DNA from: a virus | DNA length: 21,461 bases | IMG/VR virus record: IMGVR_UViG_3300027759_000494 | Location: 1-21,461 of that record | Reading direction: 5' to 3' (one strand) | Shown here: piece after piece, positions 6,551-21,461 of the stretch | Layout: every line of letters starts with the position of its first letter | How positions within the stretch are numbered: the first letter of the stretch is position 1 | Notes under the pieces: model-generated | Databases searched by the model: none | The model's input: only the letters and a program-made list of their open reading frames with translations | What the model was told of the DNA's origin: nothing | Made by a program: the position numbers and the translations under genes

Positions 6551-6559
6551 AATTTGAGA

Positions 6560-6628: not shown

Positions 6629-6635
6629 AGATATT

Positions 6636-6720: not shown

Positions 6721-6726
6721 AGTTTA

Positions 6727-6802: not shown

Positions 6803-6808
6803 AAGTTT

Positions 6809-6885: not shown

Positions 6886-6890
6886 AATAT

Positions 6891-6965: not shown

Positions 6966-6984
6966 TAAATAATGAATATATAAT

Positions 6985-7058: not shown

Positions 7059-7061
7059 ATA

Positions 7062-7805: not shown

Positions 7806-7978
7806 TTTAGGAATCCATACAATATCTCAAACGACTTCTTAATTTCTGTTTGATAGTTGGTTAACAAAATCATAGCGACACCACTTAACCCCATCAAGTT
7901 CTTTGATGCTGTTGGTGGTGCCGGTGTTGCTGATATAGGAGCCGCAACTTTTCTACGACGAATAGGTTTCTTTGGCAT
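7802..7978 (-). CDS. Small basic single-helix membrane protein
   Basis: 58 residues starting MPKKPIRRRKVAAP, then a Pro/Ala-rich linker and a hydrophobic stretch (LMGLSGVAMILL), ending FEILYGFLK. The stop overlaps the start of the sensor-like gene as ATGA, so the two are translationally coupled. The basic, proline-rich N-terminus resembles the tail of that neighbour, suggesting a shared location or partner. The ribosome site is weak (AAAGAG close to the ATG). Confidence 0.6.
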   Translation of the reverse strand: MPKKPIRRRKVAAPISATPAPPTASKNLMGLSGVAMILLTNYQTEIKKSFEILYGFLK

Positions 7979-7990
7979 TTCTCTTTACCA

Positions 7991-8278
7991 TTAAGTTTTG
8001 GTGCCTTTTATACCAGATGCTAATATGCAGGCGGTGATATTGTTGTGTTCAATCAATGTCCATGACCCTATATTATCATTTTCCCACCATTCTATAAATG
8101 CGCCATTGTTCATGTTTACTGCACTCATGATTACAGATTCATTATGCTCTTCTTTTAAGTATGATACTGCTTTTTCTCTTGAGGTACAGGAAACGGTTTT
8201 CTGCATTAGTTGTTGAGAATGTGCTATGCTTACAGTAAAAAATGACATTAAAAATAACGTCACTATTAATACTTGCAT
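7991..8278 (-). CDS. Secreted hypothetical protein with two cysteines
   Basis: 95 residues with an N-terminal signal peptide (hydrophobic 3-17, likely cleavage after SIAHS near residue 21). The mature part has two cysteines, C31 (VSCTSREKAV) and C84 (ITACILAS), which could form a disulfide in the periplasm. It also has a YLKEEHNES helix and strand-like segments such as AFIEWWENDN. AAGGAGT lies ten bases before the ATG. It belongs to the minus-strand late operon of membrane and secreted proteins. No family recognised. Confidence 0.75.
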   Translation of the reverse strand: MQVLIVTLFLMSFFTVSIAHSQQLMQKTVSCTSREKAVSYLKEEHNESVIMSAVNMNNGAFIEWWENDNIGSWTLIEHNNITACILASGIKGTKT

Positions 8279-8302
8279 CCTATGCTTACTCCTTTTTAAG
8301 GT

Positions 8303-8434
8303 TTATATTTTCAATGCTTGACATATCGCAGCCACACACAACAAGGCTAACAATGTTCCTAGGAACACAGCCGCTTCTATTGGCAATCTATAACCAAAAG
8401 CCCAGATATCATTTTGACTTCCAAAATTTGACAT
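8303..8434 (-). CDS. Tiny membrane protein, 43 residues
   Basis: An ORF of 43 codons starting MSNFGSQNDIWAFGYRLPI, then a strong hydrophobic helix (AAVFLGTLLALLCVAAICQAL). It starts two bases after the stop of the IscA-like gene, as expected in a coupled operon, although the ribosome site is weak. Codon pattern and position support it. Function unknown. Confidence 0.6.
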   Translation of the reverse strand: MSNFGSQNDIWAFGYRLPIEAAVFLGTLLALLCVAAICQALKI

Positions 8435-8436
8435 AA

Positions 8437-8748
8437 TCATACACTAAAACTCTTACCACAACCGCATGATGTTTTCTCATTTGGGTTTCTAAATACTAGT
8501 TGAGATGAACCAAGTTTCTTTTCATAATCTAGTTCTGTTCCTATTACAAACAATATACTAGTCTTATCTACTATCAATCTCCTGTCAGATCCTAGATCGA
8601 CAATGAAATCGAGAAGGTCAGGATCATCACTATTGAAATTATAATCATAACTGAATCCAGCACAACCTCCTCCTTTAACTTCGATTCTGATATCTTTATC
8701 AAACGATGTTAGATAATTGCGGGCCGAATCTGTAACTGTTATCATCAT
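8437..8748 (-). CDS. A-type iron-sulfur carrier, IscA/ErpA-like
   Basis: 103 residues of the HesB/IscA/ErpA family, which carry and deliver Fe-S clusters in the cytoplasm. The three ligand cysteines are present: C29 in GGGCAGFSY, and C95 and C97 in the C-terminal SCGCGKSF. Length is typical of the family. There are two ATGs, at 8748 and 8745. The second has better spacing to AGGT, so the protein may be one residue shorter. Homologues occur in many marine T4-like phages. It is the only clearly cytosolic product in this membrane-protein operon. Which enzyme it would serve is not evident here. Confidence 0.9.
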   Translation of the reverse strand: MMITVTDSARNYLTSFDKDIRIEVKGGGCAGFSYDYNFNSDDPDLLDFIVDLGSDRRLIVDKTSILFVIGTELDYEKKLGSSQLVFRNPNEKTSCGCGKSFSV

Positions 8749-8749
8749 A

Positions 8750-9169
8750 CTACCTATGAATTATACCATATGAAAATGCGCCAAATATTGAGATTCCGAG
8801 AATAGCTACTACTCCCAATATAATAAGTAAGAGATGACCAACACCTATCATCTCATCATCTTGCGATTTCTTTACTGTTGAAGAAACTCGCTGTTCTTGT
8901 TGTATCTTCTTGTATGCTTCACGTTCACCGTGAGACATATTCATATAAGCGGCATCTTGTTGCTCTTTAAGTTTAGCTTCGTTCTTAGCACGAATGACAG
9001 CATTCTTAGCCGCAACAGATGCATTCTGTTGCTTTGCTTTAGAATTGGCGGCCGTCTTCATATTCTTGCCGTCTCTTAGAACATCGGCAACACCAAATAT
9101 GGATTCGGCTAGAACTTCACCCCATGCTTTTCCAAGCTGGGCTGCTTTCTTTGGATCTGTCGGTAACAT
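8750..9169 (-). CDS. Tail-anchored membrane protein, unknown
   Basis: 139 residues: an N-terminal segment LPTDPKKAAQLGKAWGEVL with an amphipathic helix, a long Ala/Lys/Gln-rich charged helical region (about 35-105), and one C-terminal hydrophobic helix (about 108-136) followed by a two-residue basic end. It has no signal peptide, so it is probably anchored by its tail with the bulk in the cytoplasm. AGAGAGG lies six bases before the ATG. It is the first gene of the minus operon, about 70 bases after the late box at 9240-9247. Function unknown. Confidence 0.75.
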   Translation of the reverse strand: MLPTDPKKAAQLGKAWGEVLAESIFGVADVLRDGKNMKTAANSKAKQQNASVAAKNAVIRAKNEAKLKEQQDAAYMNMSHGEREAYKKIQQEQRVSSTVKKSQDDEMIGVGHLLLIILGVVAILGISIFGAFSYGIIHR

Positions 9170-9198
9170 TGAAACCTCTCTGTTATCGTGAGTATAAT
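9169..9198 (+). promoter_or_regulatory. Possible sigma70 promoter for tRNA-Pro/tRNA-Cys
   Basis: TTGAAA (9169-9174) and TATAAT (9193-9198) with 18-base spacing, reading right towards tRNA-Pro. It overlaps the start codon of the divergent gene. Predicted start near 9205. Confidence 0.45.
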
Positions 9199-9239
9199 GA
9201 AATCAAAAACAATAACAAAAAAGATACACATCTATTAAC

Positions 9240-9247
9240 TATTTATA
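9240..9247 (-). promoter_or_regulatory. T4-type late promoter of the minus-strand operon
   Basis: The reverse complement reads exactly TATAAATA. It lies 70 bases upstream of the first minus-strand start codon and nothing else on that strand needs it, which makes the whole 9169-7062 operon a likely late unit. Confidence 0.7.
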
Positions 9248-9271
9248 AGCCTGCTAACAGGTACCAAGTTT

Positions 9272-9346
9272 CTGTGTGTGGTGTAGTCTGGTTAACATAC
9301 CTGATTTGGAGTCAGGGGACCGCTGGTTCGAATCCAGCCACGCAGA
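9272..9346 (+). tRNA. tRNA-Pro (TGG), CCA not encoded
   Basis: Acceptor CTGTGTG/CACGCAG, D arm GTGT/ACAT, anticodon arm CCTGA-TTTGGAG-TCAGG with anticodon TGG, T arm GCTGG-TTCGAAT-CCAGC, discriminator A. The next bases are CAT, so CCA must be added by an enzyme, unlike most other tRNAs here. Confidence 0.92.
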
Positions 9347-9350
9347 CATT

Positions 9351-9474
9351 CGACCTCCGTCATAGAGGTCGTTCAAGACGCGGAAGACCCAAGTCGCGTA
9401 AAAAACGGGTGGGGGTTGATAGCTTTCGACCAAGCACACAACCACGTTGCATAGCAGGAGAGGCGGGGCTATGT
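9351..9474 (+). ncRNA. Candidate structured RNA with pseudoknot between tRNA-Pro and tRNA-Cys
   Basis: A gene-free stretch densely packed with pairing. There is a perfect 7-bp hairpin (9351-9357/9365-9371, 7-base loop). Next is a possible H-type pseudoknot in which ACGCG 9378-9382 pairs with CGCGT 9395-9399 and ACCC 9387-9390 pairs with GGGT 9407-9410 across an A-rich linker AAAAAAC. Then come a 6-bp hairpin GGTTGA-TAGCTT-TCGACC (9414-9431) and a 7-bp hairpin GCATAGC/GCTATGT (9449-9474). An A-rich third loop in an H-type pseudoknot is typical of compact ligand-binding RNAs such as preQ1-I, but the preQ1 core bases are absent. It could be a processed small RNA like those in the T4 tRNA cluster. 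Confidence 0.5.
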
Positions 9475-9484
9475 TACATATTTA

Positions 9485-9560
9485 GGAGTCATAGCAAAAC
9501 GGCTAATGCGCGGGACTGCAAATCCTTGAGGTTCCAGTTCGAATCTGGATGACTCCTCCA
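9485..9560 (+). tRNA. tRNA-Cys (GCA)
   Basis: Acceptor GGAGTCA/TGACTCC perfect, D arm GCA/TGC, anticodon loop CTGCAAA with anticodon GCA (stem CGGGA/TCCTT with one mismatch), T arm TCCAG-TTCGAAT-CTGGA, discriminator T as expected for Cys, CCA encoded. Confidence 0.93.
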
Positions 9561-9564
9561 ATCA

Positions 9565-9572
9565 CCTAAATA
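9565..9572 (+). promoter_or_regulatory. Variant late promoter box
   Basis: CCTAAATA, 29 bases before the ATG at 9602 and just after tRNA-Cys. The TAAATA core is at the same distance from a start codon as at 13334 and 16125. Confidence 0.4.
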
Positions 9573-9601
9573 AAAGATGCTAATCAAAAAGGAGAAGCAT
9601 C

Positions 9602-9778
9602 ATGTTAGGTTACGACTACACTGATAATATGATCAGAGAACATCTGATCAAGAATGCTAAAGGTGTGGGTAAACTATGGGCATCTTTAATCCTGCAATAT
9701 CCTACCATATACTCAGACTTCTGGCGGGGATACTATGAAGAAGTCAAGAGCAGGCTTTCGCCCAAAGCCGCAAAATAA
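9602..9778 (+). CDS. Small hypothetical helical protein, 58 residues
   Basis: An ORF of 58 codons preceded by an AAAGGAGAAG ribosome site. The product begins MLGYDYTDNMIREHLIKNAK and continues with aromatic-rich helices (LWASLILQYPTIYSDFWRGYYEEV), ending basic. It has no clear membrane segment because charged residues interrupt the helix. It begins a plus-strand run with rlpA-like and three further genes and has a variant late box upstream. Function unknown. Confidence 0.65.
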   Translation: MLGYDYTDNMIREHLIKNAKGVGKLWASLILQYPTIYSDFWRGYYEEVKSRLSPKAAK

Positions 9779-9788
9779 GGAAAACTAA

Positions 9789-10127
9789 ATGTTTAGAAAA
9801 CAAGTAGCTGCCATCATGGCGGCGATGGTTCTTTCTGGCTGTAATACAGTTAGGCCTGAGAGTCAACAAATGGTTGCAAGTTGGTATATGCACGGAACAC
9901 ATACAGCAAATGGTGAAAGATTCAATCCAGATGGAATGACAGTCGCACACAAAACACTACCTTTTAATACTAAATTGCGCTTGACACATAATGACAAATC
10001 TGTTATAGTAAGAGTTAATGATAGGGGACCGTTTATTAAAGGAAGAGACATTGATCTATCTCGTGGTGTAGCTAAGGTTCTCGGTTGTCCAGGAATTTGT
10101 AGATTAGATGCGGAGATTATACAATGA
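9789..10127 (+). CDS. RlpA-like septal lipoprotein (DPBB domain)
   Basis: 112 residues. The lipoprotein signal has the lipobox LSGC with C18 as the lipidated cysteine. The mature part is a double-psi beta-barrel domain of the RlpA type, with [16 protein letters not shown] (30-45), [16 protein letters not shown] (50-65) and [19 protein letters not shown] (74-92). In Pseudomonas RlpA, the Glu of the NGERF block and the Asp of NDRGPF are catalytic for cleaving denuded glycan strands. Both are present here (E43, D78). The SPOR domain that directs cellular RlpA to the septum is missing. A phage copy could aid wall remodelling or lysis. AAGGA lies eight bases upstream, and the stop overlaps the next start (ATGA). 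Confidence 0.85.
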
Positions 10128-10564
10128 GTGATCTATTCGATACTCTAGATTCAATTCAAGAGGCTTTTGATGAGGCAGATGAAGAACTAGAGAAAATGGT
10201 GAATGATTGTGATCCTACACTGAAGCTAGCCGTTACCGCATGGGTGATGAAGCACATCGTCGAACATGCACAAGAAGGTGGTAGCTTTCGCTATCTTATC
10301 TATGATCGGTTATGGTTTGGTCCTGAAGCCTACGTTCCACTGTATACTGCAGGTGGTATGGAAATCTCTAATGAGTTTGACCTCAACATCATGAACGATA
10401 TCCGTGAGGTGGTCAAAGAGAACCAATATGATAAACTGAAAGAACTGGCCAGTCTTTGTGACGAACCAGATTGCTATGATGAGATATCTTGTGGATGGCC
10501 TTCTGATAAAGGCTATCGACGTACCTGTGGTAATCACTATATATCTAAAGACTACAACATATAG
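10124..10564 (+). CDS. Hypothetical protein with C-terminal cysteine cluster
   Basis: 146 residues. The N-terminus is very acidic and helical ([10 protein letters not shown]). The middle has strand-like [19 protein letters not shown]. The C-terminus holds a probable zinc knuckle with C112, C117, C123, C135 and H138 within [20 protein letters not shown]. Such a CGWP...GYRRTCGxH ending occurs in other phage hypothetical proteins, as far as I recall. The start overlaps the RlpA-like stop (ATGA). Function unknown, and metal binding is inferred from spacing only. Confidence 0.75.
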
Positions 10565-10573
10565 GAGTATATT

Positions 10574-10783
10574 ATGACAAGACAACCAAGTGCTAAAATT
10601 TCTGATAAGTTAACCAAGGTCAATGACAGTTTCACAGTCAACATGTATGAAAATGGATTCATGGTTGATATTGGCGGTCGTGATGATGAAGATAGTTGGT
10701 GTTCCACAAAGATCATCGCAACATCACTCGACGACCTGATTGAATTGATTCGTGAGGCAACCGAGATTGATCGCGCCGATTAA
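10574..10783 (+). CDS. Small conserved-type phage protein
   Basis: 69 residues with a polar N-terminus (MTRQPSAKISDKLTKVND), two strands (SFTVNMYENGFMVDIGG), then STKIIATSLDDLIELIREA. The pattern of strands followed by S-L-D-D-L-I helix is common in very small T4-like phage proteins of unknown role. AGGAG lies eight bases upstream. It is the last gene of this subcluster, followed by a 94-base gap with a GCTAT/ATAGC hairpin and a new promoter. Confidence 0.7.
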   Translation: MTRQPSAKISDKLTKVNDSFTVNMYENGFMVDIGGRDDEDSWCSTKIIATSLDDLIELIREATEIDRAD

Positions 10784-10822
10784 GCTATGCATTCTCTGTA
10801 TAGCAGGGTTGCAAAAAAAGAC

Positions 10823-10850
10823 TTGACTTTACTGATGGTCATGCTATAAT
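10823..10850 (+). promoter_or_regulatory. Sigma70-like promoter of the metallopeptidase gene
   Basis: TTGACT (10823-10828) and TATAAT (10845-10850) with 16-base spacing, preceded by an A-run that could act as an UP element. The predicted start lies about 20 bases before the ATG at 10878. Confidence 0.7.
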
Positions 10851-10877
10851 GGTATCAAATCGGTAAGAGAGGTTTCT

Positions 10878-11312
10878 ATGAAAGTTTATGTGTCTGGCAA
10901 GAACGACAATCTAGACAAGAAAGAGATTAGAGCCGCAATCAAATTCTACGGAAAGACGCTTTTAACCGAGCGCCTTTTCGATAAAATCAAGGTCTATGTT
11001 AAGTGTAATGATGATGAAGATGGTGGCAGTGCAGGTCCGATTGATGATATCAAACGGCCTCGTGTGTTTGAAATCTACGTTAATCCTCTGATGGGTAAAC
11101 GTAGACAGCTTATCACGCTAGCCCATGAAATGGTTCACATCAAGCAGTTCGCTAAGGACGAATTGAAGTATAATGTTCGTCGCAATACCGACAAGTGGTT
11201 GGGTGAACATATAGATAGTAGTGTAGATTATTTTGATAAGCCTTGGGAGATCGAGGCGTTTGGTCGTGAGTTAGGTTTGTATATTCGTTATATGAACCAG
11301 AGAAAGAAGTAG
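10878..11312 (+). CDS. Putative zinc metallopeptidase (HExxH)
   Basis: 144 residues. The motif HEMVH (83-87) within LITLAHEMVHIKQ is the zinc-binding helix of gluzincin or SprT-like peptidases. A downstream glutamate in PWEIEA (E124 or E126) is a candidate third ligand. The N-terminal part (strands VYVSG, KIKVYVKC) precedes an RVFEIYVNPLMG edge strand, as in small phage peptidases. There is no signal peptide, so it acts in the cytoplasm or virion. It is read from its own good promoter. The substrate is unknown. The multidomain gene at the right end of the window holds another HELVHHKQ domain of the same style. Confidence 0.75.
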   Translation: MKVYVSGKNDNLDKKEIRAAIKFYGKTLLTERLFDKIKVYVKCNDDEDGGSAGPIDDIKRPRVFEIYVNPLMGKRRQLITLAHEMVHIKQFAKDELKYNVRRNTDKWLGEHIDSSVDYFDKPWEIEAFGRELGLYIRYMNQRKK

Positions 11313-11325
11313 AGCATCGAAGTTT

Positions 11326-11333
11326 TATAAATA
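11326..11333 (+). promoter_or_regulatory. T4-type late promoter before HNH gene
   Basis: Exact TATAAATA, 25 bases before the ATG at 11359, leaving a short leader with an AGGAGA ribosome site. It gives the HNH gene its own late transcript. Confidence 0.65.
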
Positions 11334-11358
11334 GGTCTACTAGGTATAGGAGACCAAG

Positions 11359-11751
11359 ATGCCAATAATAATCGAATATAACTGTTTGAATTGTGGTGTT
11401 TATGCTAAGAAAGCTAATGTTTCTGGCAAATACTGTTCGAACAAATGTCAACACGAACGTTCGATGGTTTTGAAGGTCGAATCTAATACAGCTTCGAGCA
11501 AAACTATGAAAAGATATCTATTACACACCGGAAAATATGTTTGTTCTGAATGTGAAATAGATAGTTATAACAACAAACCTATTATGTTAGAACTTGAACA
11601 TAAAAATGGAAATTCTAACGATAATAGTTTAGATAATGTGTGTCTATTATGTCCAAATTGTCATTCGCAGACCGCTACATATAAAGCGAAAAATAAAGGT
11701 AATGGTCGACATAGCAGAAGATTGAGATATCAAGAAGGTAAGAGTTATTAG
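11359..11751 (+). CDS. HNH endonuclease with zinc fingers
   Basis: 130 residues. The N-terminal zinc finger has C9, C12, C26 and C30. The HNH domain has a structural zinc pair C62/C65 with C98/C101, and the active-site pattern LELEHKNGNSND (H81), DNV (N93) and CPNCH (H102). The C-terminus is basic (KAKNKGNGRHSRR), fitting DNA binding. This is a free-standing homing-type endonuclease, with its own late promoter and an end only six bases before tRNA-Thr. Such genes often invade phage genomes near conserved sites, so it may be a mobile insertion in this tRNA-dotted region. Its AT-rich codons (ATA, AAT, TTA) look stronger than in the genes either side. Confidence 0.85.
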   Translation: MPIIIEYNCLNCGVYAKKANVSGKYCSNKCQHERSMVLKVESNTASSKTMKRYLLHTGKYVCSECEIDSYNNKPIMLELEHKNGNSNDNSLDNVCLLCPNCHSQTATYKAKNKGNGRHSRRLRYQEGKSY

Positions 11752-11757
11752 AGATAA

Positions 11758-11832
11758 GCCCCTAAAGCATAAACGGAGATGCAGCCGCCTTGTAAGCGGC
11801 AGATGATCGTTCAAGCCGGTCTGGGGGCACCA
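11758..11832 (+). tRNA. tRNA-Thr (TGT)
   Basis: Acceptor GCCCCTA/TGGGGGC, D arm GCAT/ATGC, anticodon arm GCCGC-CTTGTAA-GCGGC with anticodon TGT, T arm GATCG-TTCAAGC-CGGTC, discriminator A, CCA encoded. Confidence 0.94.
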
Positions 11833-11847
11833 TTATATGTGAATCGT

Positions 11848-12492
11848 ATGAAGCCAACTATAGCATTGTTCAGACACCATCCAGAATGTTCCAATCAATG
11901 CTGTGATGGCATGATCAAAGCCTTATCACCTAAGTACCAGTTCAAACTGTTTGATGTTGGTGAGATTAATAATGAGACGTTGAATGGAGTGGATATTGTT
12001 GCTTTTCCTGGTGGTATCGGAGACTCTAATAAGTATTATGATCTCTTTCGCAAAAGTGGCTCAAATATGGTCGCTGACTTTGTTGTGCGCGGCGGCCGTT
12101 ATCTTGGTATCTGTATGGGTGCTTATTGGGCCGGTTCTCATTATTTTGATGTTATGGAAAATGTTGACGCGGTCCAATACATAAAGAGACCTAATGCAGA
12201 TATTCGCCGTAGTTACTCAACAGTTGCTTCTGTTAATTGGCTTGGTGGCAATCATAGCATGTTTTTCTATGACGGATGTTCGTTGATTGGTGACGAAACG
12301 AAGTTTGATACGATAGCCAGATACACGAACGGTGATCCGATGGCTATCATACAGGGAAGAATCGGTCTAATTGGCTGTCACCCTGAATCAGAGAAATTCT
12401 GGTATGATAAGAAGTATCTTCAATCATACTGGCACAACGAAGATCACCATAAACTCCTGCTTGAGTTCGTTGATGATCTAATGTCACGATAA
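11848..12492 (+). CDS. Class I glutamine amidotransferase-like protein (BPL_N type)
   Basis: 214 residues resembling the N-terminal GATase-like domain of eukaryotic-type biotin-protein ligases (BPL_N). Visible are VAFPGGIGD (51-59), FVVRGGRYLGICMGAYWAG (78-96) with nucleophile C89 in the elbow, and GCHPESEK (177-183) with H178 and E180 completing a Cys-His-Glu triad. No biotin-ligase or synthetase domain is attached. The frame is open further upstream, but that part would overlap tRNA-Thr, so I start at ATG 11848. No strong ribosome site is visible. The gene ends directly at tRNA-Ser. The reaction is unknown. The family may hydrolyse or transfer amide nitrogen, or act as a peptidase-like enzyme. 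Confidence 0.75.
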   Translation: MKPTIALFRHHPECSNQCCDGMIKALSPKYQFKLFDVGEINNETLNGVDIVAFPGGIGDSNKYYDLFRKSGSNMVADFVVRGGRYLGICMGAYWAGSHYFDVMENVDAVQYIKRPNADIRRSYSTVASVNWLGGNHSMFFYDGCSLIGDETKFDTIARYTNGDPMAIIQGRIGLIGCHPESEKFWYDKKYLQSYWHNEDHHKLLLEFVDDLMSR

Positions 12493-12582
12493 GGAAGTTT
12501 GGCCGAGCGGTTTAAGGCTCTAGTCTTGAAAACTAGCGTGGGTGTAAGCCCACCGTGAGTTCGAATCTCACAGCTTCCGCCA
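12493..12582 (+). tRNA. tRNA-Ser (TGA)
   Basis: Starts on the base after the upstream stop codon. Acceptor GGAAGTT/AGCTTCC, anticodon arm CTAGT-CTTGAAA-ACTAG, long variable arm closed by GTGGG/CCCAC, T arm GTGAG-TTCGAAT-CTCAC, discriminator G, CCA encoded. Confidence 0.95.
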
Positions 12583-12599
12583 ATATTATGGAGTGTATG

Positions 12600-12791
12600 A
12601 TGGATATCTATGAAAACTATGTGACGTTCTTGAGGTTCGAAGTTGGCATCTTGAAGGGTAGATTGAAACCTGAAGATACAGGTCATATACATACTACCAT
12701 TCGAGTCCTTGAAGAACGCATTCAAGAAATCGAGAATAACAAACAGAATTTGAAGGTTTATAACGATTATCAAGTTCATAGTCTATCGTGA
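12600..12791 (+). CDS. Small helical phage protein
   Basis: 63 residues starting MDIYENYVTFLRFEVGIL, continuing KGRLKPEDTGHIHTTI and a coiled-coil-like helix LEERIQEIENNKQN. ATGs at 12588, 12597 and 12600 are possible. I prefer 12600, which has GGAG six bases upstream. The RFEVGILKGRLKPEDTGHI block looks like a conserved phage signature I have seen in hypothetical proteins of T4-like phages. Function unknown. Confidence 0.7.
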   Translation: MDIYENYVTFLRFEVGILKGRLKPEDTGHIHTTIRVLEERIQEIENNKQNLKVYNDYQVHSLS

Positions 12792-12799
12792 GGTGATTG

Positions 12800-13180
12800 A
12801 TGTTACCTGTTGCTGTTAATCTAAATAACATTCGACAGTATTATACGCAATACCATGATTATGGGTATAATGAAGAACCAGTAGAGACAACCGAGTTTGT
12901 AGCATATGAGTTCATCAATCCAATCGATATCAAGACCAAGATTGTAGAGTATCTTGGTAAAGTTTTGGCTAGATGCTGGATTCAACCAGCCTTGCTGAAA
13001 GATTTAGAGAATGATGCTCATACCTGCTTGTTAGAGATGGGTCTGATCTTACCACCTGAGTTGAACATTCATGTGGTCAAAACGAATAAGAATAGACCAC
13101 GGTTAGTGGTTTATGAAACTGTTAATGGCAAACCTAAGAAAGTCTGTTATCTTCAGCTTTCTATGATAGCCAGTAAATAA
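12800..13180 (+). CDS. Hypothetical protein
   Basis: 126 residues starting MLPVAVNLNNIRQYYTQYHDY. It has an aromatic-rich N-terminus, a helical middle (IKTKIVEYLGKVLARCWIQ, LLKDLENDAHTCLLEMG) and a strand-rich basic C-terminus (RLVVYETVNGKPKKVCYL). I used ATG 12800, with AGGTG four bases upstream. An in-frame TTG lies one codon earlier. The stop is followed by tRNA-Gly two bases later. No motif recognised. Confidence 0.7.
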   Translation: MLPVAVNLNNIRQYYTQYHDYGYNEEPVETTEFVAYEFINPIDIKTKIVEYLGKVLARCWIQPALLKDLENDAHTCLLEMGLILPPELNIHVVKTNKNRPRLVVYETVNGKPKKVCYLQLSMIASK

Positions 13181-13182
13181 TT

Positions 13183-13257
13183 GCGGCTGTAGCTCAGTGG
13201 TAGAGCGTCACGTTGCCAACGTGAATGTCGTCGGTTCGAAACCGACCTGCCGCTCCA
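13183..13257 (+). tRNA. tRNA-Gly (GCC)
   Basis: Acceptor GCGGCTG/CTGCCGC with one T-T mismatch, D arm GCTC/GAGC, anticodon arm TCACG-TTGCCAA-CGTGA with anticodon GCC, T arm GTCGG-TTCGAAA-CCGAC, discriminator T as in bacterial Gly, CCA encoded. Confidence 0.94.
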
Positions 13258-13262
13258 ATTAT

Positions 13263-13333
13263 GCGGGTTTAATGTAACGGTAGCAGATCGGATTCCAATC
13301 CGAACGAGTGGTTCAACTCCACACCCCGCTCCA
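13263..13333 (+). tRNA. tRNA-Gly (TCC) with 6-base anticodon loop; could be misread as Trp (CCA)
   Basis: Acceptor GCGGGTT/ACCCCGC (one mismatch), T arm with TTCAACT loop, discriminator T, CCA encoded. The anticodon arm TCGGA-TTCCAA-TCCGA is one base shorter than normal. If the missing base is position 32, the anticodon is TCC (Gly). If it is position 38, it is CCA (Trp). G1-C72, C2-G71, G3-C70 and U73 are the known Gly identity bases, and Trp would need G73, so I call Gly. T4 tRNA-Gly has a similar arm with loop CTTCCAA. Confidence 0.75.
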
Positions 13334-13341
13334 ACTAAATA
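13334..13341 (+). promoter_or_regulatory. Variant late promoter box with 5' hairpin downstream
   Basis: ACTAAATA, 32 bases before the ATG at 13374. CGCAC (13345-13349) and GTGCG (13356-13360) form a hairpin that would sit at the very 5' end of a transcript starting here. Confidence 0.4.
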
Positions 13342-13373
13342 CCTCGCACAATCTCGTGCGGAGTGTTTATAAA

Positions 13374-13763
13374 ATGGCTAAGAAAAAAGAATTACACTTA
13401 ACAGAGGTTCGTGATGCACATGCGAAGATTGAACTAAAAAGAAGTTCGAAGTGGCCTACTGTTGAAAAGAAACATATAAAGAAAAATCCAACCTGTGCTG
13501 CCTGTGGCGGCACTTTGCATTTGAACGTTCACCACAAGAAACCTTTTCATCTGTTTCCTGAACTAGAGTTAGAATCGACAAATCTGATCACACTCTGTAT
13601 GGATGGCGACAAAGATTGCCATATTAAACTAGGTCATGGTGGCAGCTTCAAAGCATATAATCCAAATGTTGAAGAAGATGTTAAGGTTGTAGCACAGAAC
13701 TTTAACATGGAACTATTAACTGAAGTCGCCGTTAAGGCAAAGAAAGCCAAACTATTAGCTTAA
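13374..13763 (+). CDS. HNH-type nuclease domain protein
   Basis: 129 residues. The HNH core has CAACGG (C41, C44), LNVHHKKPFHLFP with H53/H54, STNLITLC (N70, C75) and DCHIKLGHGG (C82, H83, H88). This is the compact C-x2-C...HH...C-x-H type. The C-terminal 30 residues are a helix ending in KAKKAKLLA. Unlike the other HNH gene it has no extra N-terminal zinc finger. It is common in T4-like phages and may be a house nuclease rather than a homing enzyme. GGAG lies ten bases before the ATG. In-frame codons further upstream overlap the tRNA and are excluded. Confidence 0.85.
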   Translation: MAKKKELHLTEVRDAHAKIELKRSSKWPTVEKKHIKKNPTCAACGGTLHLNVHHKKPFHLFPELELESTNLITLCMDGDKDCHIKLGHGGSFKAYNPNVEEDVKVVAQNFNMELLTEVAVKAKKAKLLA

Positions 13764-13778
13764 AGGAGTTTACATGAG

Positions 13779-14135
13779 ATGGCAAAATACTGGGGTTATC
13801 ACCTGATTTTAGATTGCGCTGGCTGTGACCATGACGCGATTACCTCTTACGATACAATATATACTTTCGTCAAGCAGTTGGTGAGAGATATCGATATGGT
13901 AGCCTATGGTGAGCCACAAATAGTGGACTTTGGTTCAGGTGATAAGGCCGGTTATACATTGGTACAGTTGATCGAAACATCGAACATTTGTGCCCATTTT
14001 GTTAATGAAAACGACACAATGTATCTTGATGTTTTCTCTTGTAAAAGCTATAATGATGAAACTGTAATTGAGTTAGTGGAAAAGTTCTTCGGCGCCAAGT
14101 CTGTGAGAGCATCATACCTGACTCGACAAGCATAA
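13779..14135 (+). CDS. SpeD-like (S-adenosylmethionine decarboxylase family) protein
   Basis: 118 residues matching the small bacterial and phage SpeD family, whose members self-cleave at a serine to form a pyruvoyl cofactor and decarboxylate S-adenosylmethionine for polyamine synthesis. Family features include the GYHLILDCAGCD start, LVQLIETSNICAHF (61-74), YLDVFSCKSY (82-91) and a C-terminal helix FFGAKSVRASYLTR. The usual E-S-H-I-S-I-H becomes T-S-N-I-C-A-H. The cleavage Ser (S68), the late His (H73) and the VFSC cysteine (C88) are kept, but the conserved Glu and His beside the Ser are changed to Thr and Asn. Such phage forms may use another substrate, and some diverged SpeD proteins decarboxylate amino acids. 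AGGAG lies ten bases upstream. Confidence 0.8.
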   Translation: MAKYWGYHLILDCAGCDHDAITSYDTIYTFVKQLVRDIDMVAYGEPQIVDFGSGDKAGYTLVQLIETSNICAHFVNENDTMYLDVFSCKSYNDETVIELVEKFFGAKSVRASYLTRQA

Positions 14136-14146
14136 AGTATAACGTG

Positions 14147-14248
14147 ATGGAAATGAGAGAAAGATTCATAGCGGCAATGGCACTCTTCTGGATGCCTTTA
14201 ATCGTTATGACAGCTATCATAATCTATCACGTTATTACTGGTCAATAG
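14147..14248 (+). CDS. Tiny membrane peptide, 33 residues
   Basis: An ORF encoding MEMRERFIAAMALFWM, then PLIVMTAIIIYHVITGQ. One hydrophobic helix spans most of the peptide. Its stop TAG shares its last base with the first base of tRNA-Leu. The ribosome site is weak, so support comes from the clean membrane helix and the packing between neighbours. Confidence 0.5.
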   Translation: MEMRERFIAAMALFWMPLIVMTAIIIYHVITGQ

Positions 14249-14325
14249 CCCCACTGGCCCAACTGGTTAGAGGTGCTTGCCTTAGAAGCAAGAGGTTCTC
14301 CGTTCGAATCGGAGGTGGGGCACCA
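14248..14325 (+). tRNA. tRNA-Leu (TAG) with short variable loop
   Basis: Acceptor GCCCCAC/GTGGGGC perfect, anticodon arm CTTGC-CTTAGAA-GCAAG with anticodon TAG, variable region only AGGTT, T arm CTCCG-TTCGAAT-CGGAG, discriminator A, CCA encoded. Like the other Leu tRNA here it lacks the long variable arm. Their D arms are also alike (GGCCAACAGGTTAGA and GCCCAACTGGTTAGA). Confidence 0.9.
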
Positions 14326-14344
14326 AAATTCTGGAAGGTATATC

Positions 14345-14761
14345 ATGTTAGAATGTTTAATCCTTGGTGATAGCATCGCAGTTGGAACACATATGTTCTA
14401 TAAAGAGTGTGTTGAATTAGCCAAAGGTGGTATCAATAGCTGGCAATTCAATAAGATGTTCGGTGATAGACCTTCACTAGATATGACTGATTATAAAATA
14501 GTCATAATCAGTCTTGGTAGCAATGATCATAAGGGTGTGAAAACTAGGGATGAACTTGTGAAGATACGAGACAAGATCCGCGCCAAACAGGTCTACTGGA
14601 TTCTACCATATAACAATACTGAAATACAGAAAACTATAATCGATCTTGCCTCTAAATATGGCGATACCATTATCCCAATTAGAGGTATCAGTAAGGACAA
14701 TATTCATCCTACTGGAAACGGTTATAAGATGATTGTTGATGAGGTAAAACAACACAGGTAA
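14345..14761 (+). CDS. SGNH/GDSL-type hydrolase
   Basis: 138 residues with all four SGNH blocks: GDS (8-10, nucleophile S10), a block II glycine in KGGINS (G29), GSND (58-61, N60) and DNIHPTGNGY (D118, H121). Such enzymes hydrolyse esters on lipids, glycans or peptidoglycan. There is no signal peptide, so a cytoplasmic or virion-associated role is likelier than secretion. GGAAGG precedes the ATG. It is followed four bases later by the RNase H-like gene. Homologues occur in several large phages. A role in modifying host polysaccharide acetyl groups is possible but not shown. Confidence 0.85.
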   Translation: MLECLILGDSIAVGTHMFYKECVELAKGGINSWQFNKMFGDRPSLDMTDYKIVIISLGSNDHKGVKTRDELVKIRDKIRAKQVYWILPYNNTEIQKTIIDLASKYGDTIIPIRGISKDNIHPTGNGYKMIVDEVKQHR

Positions 14762-14765
14762 TACC

Positions 14766-15239
14766 ATGAAAAAGTTTGATATTGAGGTTGTTAAAGAGTT
14801 CATCTTAAACACTTCGCCTGAGACCAAGATATATATTGGTGCAGACTCCGAACGTTACCGTGATAAGAAAGCTTTATGGCACGCTGAGTATACGGTAGCC
14901 ATTGTTATTCATATCGACGGTAACAAAGGTTGTAAAGTCTTTGGTAATGTTTCGAGAGAGCGTGATTATGATAATCGTCATGACAGACCAGCACTCAGAC
15001 TAATGAACGAGGTGTATCGTGCTTCAGAAATGTATTTACAACTTGCAGATGTTATTGGTGATCGACACTGTGAAGTCCATCTTGATATCAGTCCTGACAT
15101 TCTACACGGTTCTTCTTGTGTTGTCACTCAAGCCATTGGGTATATTAGGGGAACTTGTAATATTATTCCTATGGTTAAACCAGATGCATTTGCAGCCTCT
15201 TACGCTGCTGACAGACTAAAAGAAATTCTAGCCGCTTAA
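14766..15239 (+). CDS. YkuK/DUF458-type RNase H-like protein
   Basis: 157 residues resembling the Bacillus YkuK family, predicted RNase H-fold nucleases. Features are IYIGADSERY (22-31), AEYTVAIVIHIDG (40-52), HLDISP (105-110) and MVKPDAFAASYAADR (136-150). Acidic residues D27, E82, D107 and D140 or D149 could form the metal site of an RNase H fold. The biological substrate of the family is not established. The start follows the SGNH gene by four bases, and the stop is directly before tRNA-Ser. Confidence 0.75.
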   Translation: MKKFDIEVVKEFILNTSPETKIYIGADSERYRDKKALWHAEYTVAIVIHIDGNKGCKVFGNVSRERDYDNRHDRPALRLMNEVYRASEMYLQLADVIGDRHCEVHLDISPDILHGSSCVVTQAIGYIRGTCNIIPMVKPDAFAASYAADRLKEILAA

Positions 15240-15240
15240 T

Positions 15241-15330
15241 GGTGAGTTGGCTGAGTGGCCTAAAGCACTCGTTTGCTAAATGAGCGAACCCTAACCGGTT
15301 CCGTGGGTTCGAATCCCACACTCACCGCCA
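15241..15330 (+). tRNA. tRNA-Ser (GCT)
   Basis: Acceptor GGTGAGT/ACTCACC, anticodon arm CTCGT-TTGCTAA-ATGAG with anticodon GCT, a long class II variable arm, T arm GTGGG-TTCGAAT-CCCAC, discriminator G, CCA encoded. Confidence 0.95.
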
Positions 15331-16160: not shown

Positions 16161-17135
16161 ATGGCTGTTGCGAAAAAAACTGGAACAGAAACAAAACTCA
16201 CCAAAAGTGATTTCTTACTGGAGATCAAAAAACTAGGATATCATGATATAAAAGAACTATCCTCTACACGGTTTGCCATTCTTGTAAGCACCAGTAGCAT
16301 GAGAGAATCTTCATTAAAAAGCATACTTTTAAGATTGCAAAAGAAGTATTCGGTCACATATGATAAATCTACAAATCTATCTAGTATAGGTCATCTGGTG
16401 ATCGAAAATGAATATCTACTCACCGCTAAACCTAAGAGTAGGCAGGGTAACGCTTCGGCTGGTGTTGAGAACGAAATCATTCTGGTTGATGAAATAAATA
16501 GTGCTGTAAAAGATAGTGGTGAAAATATAACTGTTATATTTAAACATGGCGGCATCAACTTCACAATGAGAGATGTATCTCAGGCTACCAGAGCCGGTGC
16601 AGATACTAAGAATCGTAAAAAATCTGATGTTAACATCACTTCAGGTAGAAACAATATACCAATATCGGTGAAGAAAGATAATGCAGAAAATTGGGAATCT
16701 GCTGATAGCTATTGGGGTCAGACAGCAAAAAAGTTTATAGACTATGCGGTTGAAAAAGAAAAAGTTACACTTAAAAAGACTGGACTAGTTTATAAATTAG
16801 AACCATCACTTGCCATAAAAGCCGATCTAGATGAAAAAGAGAGTGTTGTTTTCGGATCGGACATTCTTGCAGGTAAGGGTGCCGTTATTAAGAAAACCTT
16901 TTCAAAAGATGACTTCACCTTTGATACCAAGAAGAACACTCTGACGGTATCTGTAACAGAAATAATGACAAAGGTGAGTGATATAACAGGTTCGAGTGAT
17001 GTATGGTTCTTGATTAGAAATGACAGCACTAGATTAGGTTCTCAGACAGGATATCCAGGTCTTAGAGTTTTGGCCGTCTATCAGAGTAGAGTAAACATGA
17101 ACGTAGTCAGATTAGACAGAAATGTTATCGAATGA
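16161..17135 (+). CDS. Putative PD-(D/E)XK nuclease-like protein
   Basis: 324 residues with no family I recognise with certainty. The centre has the layout of a PD-(D/E)XK nuclease core: a helix with GVENEIILVDEIN (E103/E105), then KKSDVNI (D156), and about 13 residues later NIPISVKKDN (S169-V170-K171). The SxK in place of the usual ExK or QxK is a known variant type but weakens the call. The N-terminus (1-90) has a helix-strand pattern starting with a basic tract (MAVAKKTGTETKLTKSDF). The C-terminus is strand-rich (SDVWFLIRN, GYPGLRVLAVYQSRVN). Its stop overlaps the next start (ATGA), linking it to the ligase-like gene. Confidence 0.5.
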   Translation: MAVAKKTGTETKLTKSDFLLEIKKLGYHDIKELSSTRFAILVSTSSMRESSLKSILLRLQKKYSVTYDKSTNLSSIGHLVIENEYLLTAKPKSRQGNASAGVENEIILVDEINSAVKDSGENITVIFKHGGINFTMRDVSQATRAGADTKNRKKSDVNITSGRNNIPISVKKDNAENWESADSYWGQTAKKFIDYAVEKEKVTLKKTGLVYKLEPSLAIKADLDEKESVVFGSDILAGKGAVIKKTFSKDDFTFDTKKNTLTVSVTEIMTKVSDITGSSDVWFLIRNDSTRLGSQTGYPGLRVLAVYQSRVNMNVVRLDRNVIE

Positions 17136-18367
17136 TTAAATTTTCAGAATACCTAACGGAAGATAAAGAAGGTAAGAACCTGCATCTGGAACACCTCGAA
17201 GATGAGGTGTTGAATGGTGGTGTTGGTGGCACTCGTGGTGCTATTAACTTTCTACAGTCTCTTAGAGATATGTTGGCCGGCCATTCATCTGAACATAAGG
17301 TCAATCTGACAACTAAATGGGATGGTGCACCTGCTATCTTTGCAGGTATCAATCCTGCTAATGGTAAGTTCTTTGTTGGAACCAAAGGTGTCTTTGCTCA
17401 GAATGCAAAGCTAAACTACACTGATGCGGACATTGACAAGAACCATCCAGCCGAAGGTCTCAATAAGAAATTGAAGGTTGCTCTCAGATATCTTGCTGAA
17501 CTCGGTATCACTGGAGTTATTCAGGGTGATATGATGTTCTCTAAGGGTGATCTGAAGCGTGAGACGATTGATGGTGTCAGCTACATCATATTTCAACCAA
17601 ACACTATCGTATATGCGGTTCCAACCGATTCCAAGTTAGCAGAACAGATGATGAATGCACAGATGGGTATTGTCTGGCATACATCCTATGTGGGTCCAGC
17701 ACTCGAAGATATGAAAGCATCGTTTGGTGTTGATATTGCTCGTTTGAGGCAGACTCGTAACGTATGGTTCCGTGATGCATCTTTTGTTGATGCCACAGGT
17801 ACCGCGACCTTCACTCAAGCTGAAATGACGGCGATCAATAGCATTCTATCTCAGGCTGGCAGTCTCTTCAGAACAATCTCACCTCGCACTCTCAACGAAA
17901 TCTCCACTAATGAAACATATAAGATACAGATCAAAGCATGGAACAACTCAAAGGTTCGTAACAACGAAAAGATTACGAATACAGTGACTCATGTCAAAGA
18001 TTTGATTCTTTCTATCGAAGAAAAACTAAACAAAAACCTAGGCGATGCGAAGAAAGAAGATACACGACTAAAGAGAGCGCAAGAGAAAACTATCGTAATG
18101 AACTTCTACAAGTCAAATAAAGATGAGTTGAAGAAGATTTTTGACTTGCAAAACCTTCTTGTTGATGCTAAACATATGATTGTTCGTAAGCTAGAGCAAG
18201 TTCAAGGTGTAACAAACACATTCATGAAAACTGATAGTGGTTATAAAGTTACAGCACCAGAAGGTTTTGTTGCTGTAGATATTCTTAAAGGTAATGCTGT
18301 TAAACTGGTCGATAGACTAGAGTTCTCACAAAACAACTTCAATGCAGCTAAAGCGTGGGTGAAATGA
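17132..18367 (+). CDS. Ligase-like nucleotidyltransferase with capsid-targeting-type leader
   Basis: 411 residues. Motifs of covalent nucleotidyltransferases (DNA/RNA ligase fold) appear in order: KWDGAPAIF (62-70) as motif I with K62 as likely AMP-carrying lysine, TGVIQGDMMF (127-136) as motif III, SYIIFQPNTIVY (150-161) as IIIa, PEGFVAVD (376-383) as motif IV, and NAVKLVD (388-394) as motif V. A helical insertion of about 110 residues (around 265-375) separates III from IV. Similar phage proteins are usually called hypothetical (DUF6267 type, as I recall). The N-terminus MIKFSEYLTE-DKEG matches the leader of T4 internal head proteins, with L-x-E at residues 8-10 as the prohead protease site. 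Start and stop both overlap neighbours (ATGA). Confidence 0.75.
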   Translation: MIKFSEYLTEDKEGKNLHLEHLEDEVLNGGVGGTRGAINFLQSLRDMLAGHSSEHKVNLTTKWDGAPAIFAGINPANGKFFVGTKGVFAQNAKLNYTDADIDKNHPAEGLNKKLKVALRYLAELGITGVIQGDMMFSKGDLKRETIDGVSYIIFQPNTIVYAVPTDSKLAEQMMNAQMGIVWHTSYVGPALEDMKASFGVDIARLRQTRNVWFRDASFVDATGTATFTQAEMTAINSILSQAGSLFRTISPRTLNEISTNETYKIQIKAWNNSKVRNNEKITNTVTHVKDLILSIEEKLNKNLGDAKKEDTRLKRAQEKTIVMNFYKSNKDELKKIFDLQNLLVDAKHMIVRKLEQVQGVTNTFMKTDSGYKVTAPEGFVAVDILKGNAVKLVDRLEFSQNNFNAAKAWVK

Positions 18368-18993
18368 AATCATTATTTGAATATCTAGATGAGTCTGTAA
18401 AGAAAGAAACCAAAGGCATCTTGAATGTCTTTGATATTGATGATACACTATTCAAGACCTCATCTAAGATTCTCATTGTGAAAGATGGTAAGACCACCAA
18501 AGAGTTAAGTTCTGGTGAGTTTAACACATATAAACTCAAATCAGGTGAGAAGTATGACTTTGAGCAATTCAGGTCAGGTAAGCACTTCTATGCCACATCT
18601 AAACCAATCGATAATGTAATCAAGAGAGCGCAAAGGGCCGTTGGTTCTGAGACCGAAAACTGTAAGACGATCATCATCACAGCCCGTTCCGATCTAAATG
18701 ATAAGGATGTGTTCTTGGATAAGTTCCGTCAACACGGTTTCCCTATCGATCAGGTCTATGTCGAACGTGCTGGTAACTTACAGAAGCTACAACCATCTGC
18801 TAAAGTCCACATCACCAAAGGTGCGGTGCTGATGAGATACATAAAATCAGGTAAGTTCAACAAGATTCGTATGTGGGATGATGGTGTTGATAATCTCAAA
18901 ATCTTGCTGAAACTAGGCGAAAAGTATCCTGAAATCAAGATGGAAGCATACTTTGTCGATGAGCAAGGCGATACATCCAGATACACTGGATAA
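18364..18993 (+). CDS. HAD-family phosphatase with capsid-targeting-type leader
   Basis: 209 residues. The HAD motif I FDIDDTLF (23-30) has nucleophile D24 and acid D26. Motif II is IIITARS (103-109). A lysine in the SAKVHITKG region (K147 or K152) could be motif III, and MWDDGVDN (170-177) fits motif IV with D172, D173 and D176. Polynucleotide 3'-phosphatases such as the C-terminal half of T4 Pnkp belong to this fold, though many HAD enzymes act on small molecules. The N-terminus MKSLFEYLDE-SVKK parallels the upstream gene and T4 internal-protein leaders, with L-x-E at residues 8-10. I use ATG 18364, which overlaps the upstream stop (ATGA). The frame is open nine bases further but without a good start. 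Confidence 0.85.
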   Translation: MKSLFEYLDESVKKETKGILNVFDIDDTLFKTSSKILIVKDGKTTKELSSGEFNTYKLKSGEKYDFEQFRSGKHFYATSKPIDNVIKRAQRAVGSETENCKTIIITARSDLNDKDVFLDKFRQHGFPIDQVYVERAGNLQKLQPSAKVHITKGAVLMRYIKSGKFNKIRMWDDGVDNLKILLKLGEKYPEIKMEAYFVDEQGDTSRYTG

Positions 18994-19075: not shown

Positions 19076-21461
19076 ATGAAAATCATTGCTGTATATCCAG
19101 GCCGTTTCCAACCTTTTCACAAAGGTCACGCACAGGTCTACAAGTGGCTCAAAGAGAAGTTCGGTAACGCACATATTGCAACTTCAGATAAAGTCGAAGC
19201 CCCCAAATCACCATTCAATTTTGACGAAAAAAAGAAGATGATGGAACTGGCTGGTGTATCACCGTCAGATATCTATCAGGTCAGAAATCCCTACATCGCG
19301 CCAGAAGTTTTGAGACACTATGACGGAACCAAGACGGTTCTCGTTTTCGCCGTGTCTGAAAAAGATATGGCAGAAGATCCTCGCTTCTCATTCAAGCCTA
19401 CAAAATCTGGAAAACCTGGTTATCTACAACCTTACCCTAAAGATGGTAAAGGTCTAGAACCATTTGGCGATCCAGATAAGCCAAGAGGCTATGTTGTAAC
19501 AACCCCCACATTCACATTCAATGTCCTTGGTGAACCGTCTAAGTCGGCTACAGAAGTTCGTAAGCAATTTGCTAATGCCGATCACGAAACACAGAAGAAA
19601 CTCATTAAAGACCTATTCGGTAAGTATGACGCTAAGGTTCATAAACTGATGGACGAAAAGATCAAAGGTGCATTAAACGCCGCACCTAAACCGAAATCAA
19701 TCAAGCAGATTAGAGAAGAACCAAACGACAATGATAGTGGTAGACCTATCGTTGATCCAAATGAACCAAATACACCGATGGGTAAGTTCGTAAGAAAATA
19801 CACACCAGTTGGTGATGTTGAAGATGTTGTTAAAGGTGTTCAGCAGGGTGATGTTAAGAAAGCTCTAGGTGGTGCAGTCAGTCTCGGTGCTCAAGCACTA
19901 ACAGGCACAGTTGGTACGGCCGCCAAGATTGCTGTTGGTGCCGCTAGAGGTGCTGGTATTATGAATGAAGATTCTGATCAACTCGACCACGAAAAGTTTG
20001 GTCCAATGCTGGACACATTCGTCCAGTTCGCATCTAAGAAAATTGGTATTCAATCTCTACCGCAGATAAGCCTACAAAAAGGTGAGATGCAGACTTCTTT
20101 CGGTGGTTATAGCCCACAGAACAAGTCAATCGTGGTTGTCACAAAGAACCGCCATCCAATGGATGTTTATAGAACGGTTGCACATGAACTTGTTCACCAC
20201 AAGCAAAATGAAGATGGTAACCTAGGTAAAGATATTGCGGCAGAAGGTTCTACTGGTTCACCAATCGAGAATGAAGCTAATGCTGAAGCTGGTAAGATCA
20301 TGCGTTGGTTTGCTAAGAAGAATCCTGATGCATTTAAGTCTGGTCAAATTGTTGAATCAGTAATTGAAGAAGGTTTAAATGATCCTTCTAGACAGAAAGC
20401 TGTATTCTTAGCTGGTGGTCCAGGTTCTGGTAAAGATTTCATCATGCAACGCACATTGCATGGTCATGGTATGAGAGAAGTTAACTCAGACACAGCCCTC
20501 GAATACTTGATGGATAAAGAAGGTCTCAGCAAGAGAATGCCACCCGAAGAAAAAACAGCTAGAGATGTTGTTCGTGGTCGCGCTAAGAAGGTTACCAAAG
20601 AGAAAGAGCGTAATGCTATTGCAGGTCGCCAAGGTCTAATCATTAACGGCACAGCGGATGATCCTGAAAAGATCATGAAAATTAAAGGTCATCTCGAAGA
20701 TAATGGTTATGATACCATGATGGTGTATGTTGATACATCAAATCCTGTATCGAGAGAAAGAAATATTCAACGCGGTAAAGAAGGTGGCCGAGAAGTGCCT
20801 GAAGATATCCGTCAGCAGAAATGGCAGTCCTCACGAGATGCCAGAGAACCATTAAGAGCCGCTTTCGGTGATAATAAATTCATTCGTGTGAATAATAGTG
20901 AAGATTATCGCACAGTTCATCCTGATCGTAAGAAAGAAATTGATACCGAACACAGTAAAATCTTCAAGACAGTTCGTAAGTTTGCTACCGCTCCTGTTCA
21001 AGATACTGCATGGCAGGAGAAAGAAAAAGAGAAGCGCGGTATCACCAAGTTCACAACACCAAAAGCACAGAAGTTTGGTTCTAAACCTAAACAACCAGCA
21101 CAGCAACCAGAATATGTTCCAAATCCAAGTGAATTGGAACAGGCTAAGCGTCTAGGTGTTCAGCACATCGGTAATGGTCAGTTTGGTGCTAAGGGTGCTG
21201 AACCTACACATGTTTCGAATGGTGGTCAGCTAACAACCTTAAATAAAGGGCTCTCAGAGGACCTTCGCAAATGGTTCAGTAAAACTGATCCTGAAGGTGG
21301 TTGGAAAAGAATCAATTCTAAAGGTGAAGCGATTGGTCCTTGCGCTAGAGAGCCGGGGGAACCAAAACCTAAATGCATGTCTAATGAAAAAAGGGCTATG
21401 TTAACCAAGAAAGAAAGAGCGTCAGCGGTTCGTGCAAAGCGTAAGCATGATCCTAATCCTG
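19076..21461 (+). CDS. Multidomain protein: nucleotidyltransferase, metallopeptidase, P-loop kinase, C-terminal domain (3' truncated)
   Basis: Open for at least 795 codons and running off the window. Domains in order: a cytidylyltransferase/NMNAT-like domain with GRFQPFHKGH (9-18, H15 and H18 of the HxGH motif) to about 200; an Ala/Gly-rich linker (about 260-295); a zinc metallopeptidase-like domain with HELVH (370-374) and a possible third ligand in ENEANAEAGK; a P-loop kinase with GGPGSGKD (447-454), similar to zeta-toxin-like or polynucleotide-kinase-like folds; a Pro/Gln-rich linker; and a C-terminal region starting RKWFSKTDPEGGWKRIN with C, P, K and R-rich sequence (DUF6321-like, as I recall). 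(L/I)-x-E sites at I212-R-E214, I430-E-E432 and L726-S-E728 sit at domain borders. The stretch before the kinase, VIEEGLNDPS, looks like the start of separate phage kinase genes. A T4-type late promoter precedes it. Confidence 0.8.
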   Translation, partial: MKIIAVYPGRFQPFHKGHAQVYKWLKEKFGNAHIATSDKVEAPKSPFNFDEKKKMMELAGVSPSDIYQVRNPYIAPEVLRHYDGTKTVLVFAVSEKDMAEDPRFSFKPTKSGKPGYLQPYPKDGKGLEPFGDPDKPRGYVVTTPTFTFNVLGEPSKSATEVRKQFANADHETQKKLIKDLFGKYDAKVHKLMDEKIKGALNAAPKPKSIKQIREEPNDNDSGRPIVDPNEPNTPMGKFVRKYTPVGDVEDVVKGVQQGDVKKALGGAVSLGAQALTGTVGTAAKIAVGAARGAGIMNEDSDQLDHEKFGPMLDTFVQFASKKIGIQSLPQISLQKGEMQTSFGGYSPQNKSIVVVTKNRHPMDVYRTVAHELVHHKQNEDGNLGKDIAAEGSTGSPIENEANAEAGKIMRWFAKKNPDAFKSGQIVESVIEEGLNDPSRQKAVFLAGGPGSGKDFIMQRTLHGHGMREVNSDTALEYLMDKEGLSKRMPPEEKTARDVVRGRAKKVTKEKERNAIAGRQGLIINGTADDPEKIMKIKGHLEDNGYDTMMVYVDTSNPVSRERNIQRGKEGGREVPEDIRQQKWQSSRDAREPLRAAFGDNKFIRVNNSEDYRTVHPDRKKEIDTEHSKIFKTVRKFATAPVQDTAWQEKEKEKRGITKFTTPKAQKFGSKPKQPAQQPEYVPNPSELEQAKRLGVQHIGNGQFGAKGAEPTHVSNGGQLTTLNKGLSEDLRKWFSKTDPEGGWKRINSKGEAIGPCAREPGEPKPKCMSNEKRAMLTKKERASAVRAKRKHDPNP

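Follow-up and report, generated by a model that had tools for sequence, protein, structure and literature searches.

Leaders of the T4 capsid-targeting type on two enzymes of an aquatic T4-like phage and their probable role in packaging into the phage head

Two leader-bearing enzyme genes

The stretch of DNA analysed here (the window, 21,461 bases) is identical, with zero mismatches, to the last 21,461 bases of the 140,865-base viral contig G001 of the IMG/VR database. Its right part carries four genes on the plus strand, which encode a phrog_12709 protein, a DUF6267 protein, a phosphatase of the HAD family and a multidomain protein (Table 1). The DUF6267 protein and the HAD phosphatase each begin with a ten-residue leader which is very probably a capsid-targeting sequence (CTS) of the phage T4 type, so that both enzymes would be packaged into the phage head, trimmed there and injected. 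Both reading frames and both leaders lie where an earlier note on this DNA had placed them. The span 17132-18393 given there starts correctly with the DUF6267 gene, but its end is that of the HAD leader; the HAD gene itself extends to 18993. A GTG start of the HAD gene at 18355 was set aside, and the ATG at 18364, which yields the ten-residue leader, was preferred.

Table 1 Features in the right part of the window (a slash marks a predicted cut)
Feature	Position	Strand	Remarks
Upstream gene, phrog_12709, function unknown	16161..17135	+	No leader; overlaps the DUF6267 start codon
Putative capsid-targeting leader of DUF6267, MIKFSEYLTE	17132..17161	+	Predicted gp21 cut after E10, between 17161 and 17162, before DKEG
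DUF6267 protein (PF19782, phrog_455; T4-GC 71 in cyanophages)	17132..18367	+	KxDG motif K62-W-D-G; possible nucleotidyltransferase/ligase
Putative capsid-targeting leader of HAD phosphatase, MKSLFEYLDE	18364..18393	+	Predicted cut before SVKK
HAD phosphatase	18364..18993	+	phrog_415 E 1.5e-5; fold nearest T4 Pnkp 3'-phosphatase; DxDxT at residues 24-28
Multidomain protein, open at window end	19076..21461	+	No N-terminal leader; four recognised parts
Predicted internal gp21 site, VIEE/G	20360..20371	+	Directly before kinase domain; [LI]xE/G in 15/15 distinct sequences
Small module (QAKRLGVQHIGNGQFG...)	21140..21247	+	Related to the module after the leader in tagged NMNAT, ADP-ribosyltransferase, kinase and Cas9-like proteins

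The two leaders share the pattern aromatic/Leu-x-E-Y-L-x-E ending at residue 10, as the earlier note had described. Across approximately 75 DUF6267 relatives encoded by viral contigs, residues 1-10 vary freely within one retained pattern. Among 30 aligned DUF6267 leaders, residue 4 is Phe (15), Leu (8) or Tyr (7), residue 7 is Tyr (19), Phe (10) or Leu (1) and residue 8 is Leu (28) or Ile (2); Glu at residue 10 is invariant (30/30), and residues 2, 3, 5, 6 and 9 are variable. Mutational mapping of the T4 internal protein IPIII assigned targeting to residues 4 and 7 and processing to residues 8 and 10 (reviewed in PMC9026906). Since the constrained columns of DUF6267 agree with this mapping position by position, the assignment of a T4-type CTS is supported. 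The T4 precedent cited in the earlier note holds for IPII and IPIII, which fit the pattern, but not for Alt, whose seven-residue propeptide is different and does not have the MKTYQEFIAE form.

A strict pattern, M..[FYW]..[FYW][LIMVF].E, was written from T4 IPII and IPIII alone. It occurs at internal protein positions with a frequency of approximately 2.5e-4 and starts 3 of the 192 open reading frames (ORFs) of G001 (Poisson P 2e-5) and 4 of the 178 ORFs of the related contig G002 (Poisson P 1.5e-7). The HAD leader, with Leu at residue 4, matches only a relaxed pattern, which found ipII and ipIII and no others among the 63 T4 genes tested.

The leader is separable from the enzymes that carry it. 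In the AlphaFold2 models, the cores of both proteins were predicted with good confidence, whereas the predicted local distance difference test score (pLDDT) was below 50 for residues 1-17 of DUF6267 and averaged 48 for residues 1-10 of the HAD phosphatase. The Pfam domain of DUF6267 begins at residue 16, and the HAD motif DIDDT follows the leader at residue 24. HAD relatives occur both with and without the leader; two of them (L119 and L122) are identical in 184 of 196 post-leader columns, yet L122 has no leader. The low pLDDT and the many leaderless relatives argue against the first ten residues being a structural part of the enzymes. Among cyanophages, the cytidylyltransferase T4-GC 190, which adjoins a leaderless T4-GC 71, has a leader in S-SM1 and P-SSM7, as does the corresponding gene of S-E7, and the Methylophilales phage Melnitz has leaders both on DUF6267 (LINFSKYITE) and on the gene before it (MQGFKTFLSE). 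This distribution shows that the tag moves among neighbouring genes. At one locus of a further contig (G003, L101, approximately 29508-31470, minus strand), a GIY-YIG homing endonuclease gene lies directly before DUF6267; what is left of the DUF6267 leader there is out of frame (SFLLKEDKEGKNLHLE*), and AATGAACACCTTGAAGATGAG is present on both sides.

The prohead protease gp21 (PF03420, family S77) is encoded by all three large contigs tested, i.e. G001, G002 and G003 (E 1e-37 to 1e-40). The search of the 21-kb window alone with PF03420 gave no match because the gp21 gene lies elsewhere on the contig. Between the portal and gp21 genes, G001 encodes an Alt-like ADP-ribosyltransferase with the leader MSNIKKFSKFMKE (PF03496 E 1e-21; phrog_802 'Alt-like' E 4e-15), and a protein of the S-adenosylmethionine (SAM) lyase family encoded by the same contig has the leader MKKFKEYIKE (PF23780 E 1e-7). 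The products of the genes at the scaffold and major capsid positions contain LxE motifs followed by Ser close to the N-terminus (ILAE/SNDS and QLNE/SAPT), which are predicted sites read from sequence. In the window, approximately 16 tRNA genes are scattered among small genes (5762-15330), which fits a phage supplementing the tRNAs of its host.

The leader in environmental contigs and cyanophage virions

The leader is widespread among viral contigs. Each of two leader DNA patterns occurred in at least 120 viral contigs of IMG/VR, whereas the residue-permuted controls occurred in 1 and 2 contigs, which corresponds to an at least 60-fold enrichment. Among the matches listed (240), 208 lie close to the beginning of an ORF with 60 or more residues, and 213 ORFs of at least 60 residues form 60 clusters without matches to one another. 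These clusters include NMNAT/cytidylyltransferase, ADP-ribosyltransferase, adenylate kinase, SAM lyase, acetyltransferase, methyltransferase and Pnkp-like phosphatase; they also hold lysozyme-type enzymes, which calls for caution. Residue 11, on which the search placed no constraint, is Ser or Ala in 142 of these 208 matches, and it is Ala in T4 IPII and IPIII.

Published mass spectrometry of cyanophage virions connects the leader with the phage particle. In S-CREM2, 52 of the 219 proteins were detected in virions (PMC10665884). The four S-CREM2 proteins with the T4-derived pattern were all detected, the probability of this by chance being 0.003, or 0.0004 among non-structural proteins. The non-lytic, non-structural enzymes listed by the authors for the S-CREM2 virion (SAM hydrolase, APH kinase, cytidylyltransferase and a Cas9-like protein) all have a leader-like motif (4/4), that of the Cas9-like protein lying about 16 residues further in. 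Enzymes of three other cyanophages exhibit the same kind of leader as those of the window: the virion-detected cytidylyltransferase of S-SM1 starts with MKKFSAFLNE (PMC3037559), the virion NMNAT of S-SCSM1 with MKSFLQFLKE (PMC9602691; one other tagged gene of this phage is not labelled as a virion protein) and the kinase of S-CRM01, reported in virions, with MISFDQFLSE. The accessible text of these papers mentions neither the leader nor new N-termini, and some of the authors could not exclude contamination; the presence of the leader on the detected enzymes favours true packaging over carry-over. The Cas9-like protein of S-CREM2 (L130, 7704-10313) is itself unusual: annotated as Cas9/Csn1 and detected in virions, it carries LRFASFMAE near its N-terminus together with the LGL module described below, and a packaged Cas9-like nuclease would be odd.

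Could the ten residues be an ordinary amphipathic helix or a part of the enzyme which resembles a CTS by chance? The recombinase UvsX encoded in the window (1887-2957, MNELFKSLMKE) fits the relaxed pattern, probably as a false positive in our judgement, which indicates that a short hydrophobic helix can mimic the leader. We nevertheless consider this explanation very improbable, since the leader lies outside the fold, is missing in relatives, is constrained at the four residues mapped in T4, exceeds its permuted patterns to the extent given above and tracks the virion proteins of S-CREM2.

Several observations weigh against the packaging of the two window enzymes. Neither DUF6267 nor the HAD phosphatase is known as a virion protein of any phage. 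Several close HAD relatives and the cyanophage DUF6267 (T4-GC 71) are leaderless, so that packaging of these two proteins is not a general trait. At residue 11, DUF6267 often has Asp, unlike most tagged proteins. Of the 24 larger tagged contigs among the matches listed, which are fragments, only 10 yielded the S77 protease; a search of seven tagged contigs lacking an S77 match for PF04586, the other family of prohead proteases, was negative. Both the S-CREM2 (PMC10665884) and the S-SCSM1 (PMC9602691) authors allow for carry-over, and the untagged RegA is labelled as a virion protein in S-SCSM1 (PMC9602691). On balance, the loading of both enzymes into the head, as suggested in the earlier note, is supported by the position of the leader outside the fold, by gp21 in all three contigs and by the tagged enzymes in the virions of four cyanophages. 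T4-like tags combined with tagged enzymes in the particles of these cyanophages indicate that aquatic T4-like phages probably inject a number of enzymes along with the DNA.

Predicted cargo and its possible roles

In the proposed mechanism, the hydrophobic or aromatic residues 4 and 7 of the newly made enzyme would dock it on the prohead core. After assembly of the shell, gp21 would cut after L-x-E at residue 10 and the leader would leave, whereas the trimmed enzyme would stay in the head with the DNA and be injected when a host is infected. In this phage, the cargo would include DUF6267, the Pnkp-like phosphatase, the Alt-like ADP-ribosyltransferase and the SAM lyase, and we infer an early role of the first two in the healing of nucleic-acid ends. 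Alternatively, the leader could be a real core-docking tag cleaved by gp21 on enzymes that act within the prohead, e.g. on DNA ends during packaging, or that are merely a by-product, and are not injected as working enzymes. T4 core proteins cut by gp21 also serve assembly, and DUF6267 of cyanophages adjoins replication genes (UvsX, helicase). The other classes of cargo (ADP-ribosyltransferase, SAM lyase, NMNAT and kinase), however, fit action in the host cell best, which makes this alternative unlikely.

The model of the HAD phosphatase matched T4 Pnkp (5uj0_B) with Z 13.1 over 131 residues (root-mean-square deviation 3.0), the alignment starting from residue 16; the AphA and Lem4 phosphatases were within approximately 1.5 Z of this match. 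Its residues D24, D26 and T28 (DxDxT) are invariant among relatives, as are K62, D64 and G65 (KxDG) of DUF6267. The DUF6267 model gave weak matches to ligase folds (Z 4.4-5.1; Trl1 5.1, T4 Rnl2 4.8 and Lig1), no significant match was obtained with it in Foldseek, and a sequence search of PDB with DUF6267 gave no ligase match. The weakness of these matches is the reason why the ligase label is only suggested here. A literature search, which was limited for subscription papers and did not include preprints, found no paper mentioning DUF6267 and, beyond the T4 review, nothing linking cyanophages to capsid targeting. The Pnkp-like fold of the HAD model and the KxDG motif of DUF6267 make a packaged end-healing and sealing set possible.

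The multidomain protein encoded downstream consists of an NMNAT/cytidylyltransferase, a metalloprotease-like domain, a P-loop (zeta/PNK-like) kinase and a C-terminal phrog_3477/12753 segment. The predicted gp21-type site before the kinase domain is retained in all the distinct linkers compared, whereas the rest of the linker varies in both length and sequence. This conservation suggests that the NMNAT/kinase polyprotein, too, is probably packaged and cut by gp21 at the internal site. Tagged ADP-ribosyltransferase, NMNAT, kinase and Cas9-like proteins (L087, L093, L104, L130, L134 and L148) have a second short module after the leader, A..LGL.Y.GFGRY.D..G.V......L, which recurs inside the polyprotein family of the window. 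This LGL module may be another head-related part.

As a tentative generalization, the CTS could be a mobile address tag used by aquatic T4-like phages to load dozens of unrelated protein families into the head. In this phage it would deliver an end-healing and sealing set, composed of the ligase-like DUF6267, the 3'-phosphatase and the kinase released by gp21, before phage gene expression. It is also quite conceivable, and compatible with packaging, that the enzymes function in NAD/nucleotide metabolism or counter-defence and not in repair, DUF6267 then being a nucleotidyltransferase that acts jointly with its NMNAT-like neighbour. DUF6267 is adjacent to a cytidylyltransferase/NMNAT-like domain in other cyanophages and fused to it in S-PM2, and tagged NMNAT-like proteins and NAD-using ADP-ribosyltransferases recur as cargo. 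On the other hand, an HAD protein nearest to the T4 Pnkp 3'-phosphatase, a Pnk/zeta-like kinase next to it and a KxDG enzyme together resemble an end-healing and sealing set, and the phage has approximately 16 tRNA genes. The S-PM2 fusion (L139:3992-5767), a single protein of 591 residues, suggests a joint function of its two parts.

Comparison with known systems

If the proposed packaging is true, a signal described chiefly in T4 and related coliphages becomes a sequence rule which predicts the proteins injected by many environmental phages. It would also provide a mechanism for those cyanophage virion enzymes which their discoverers were unable to distinguish from contamination. The new candidates for injection (SAM-degrading enzyme, NMNAT, phosphatase and kinase) may then act against host defences at the very start of infection.

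The closest precedent is that of the T4 internal proteins IPI-IPIII, with which the window enzymes share a detachable leader of ten residues, hydrophobic at positions 4 and 7 and closed by L/I-x-E at positions 8-10, its occurrence on unrelated proteins and a protease of the gp21 family. The T4 cargo consists of small inhibitors of the GmrSD restriction enzymes (PMC12373910), whereas that of the window consists of enzyme-sized proteins of an aquatic phage. T4 Alt is likewise a large enzyme within the head, and the contig of the window has its own leader-bearing Alt-like protein; T4 Alt, however, is processed at its C-terminus in addition to its short propeptide, which is not of the MxxFxxYLxE form. 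DarB and DarA of phage P1 represent another case in which a large protein is sent to the head by a capsid-targeting sequence (PMC9024508), although in another phage and with another protease. In SPN3US and phiKZ, the prohead protease also cuts N-terminal propeptides off packaged and ejected proteins (PMC5694885), but these propeptides are mostly longer than 100 residues and are cleaved at A-x-E or S-x-E. The CTS signal has led to the discovery of many ip genes in T-even phages (PMC12373910), and T4-like phages, it has been suggested, may use the CTS to incorporate a variety of proteins (PMC9026906). T4 already provides the mechanism as such; the novelty lies in the enzyme cargo, in the breadth among aquatic phages, in the tie to published virion data and in the internal site predicted here.
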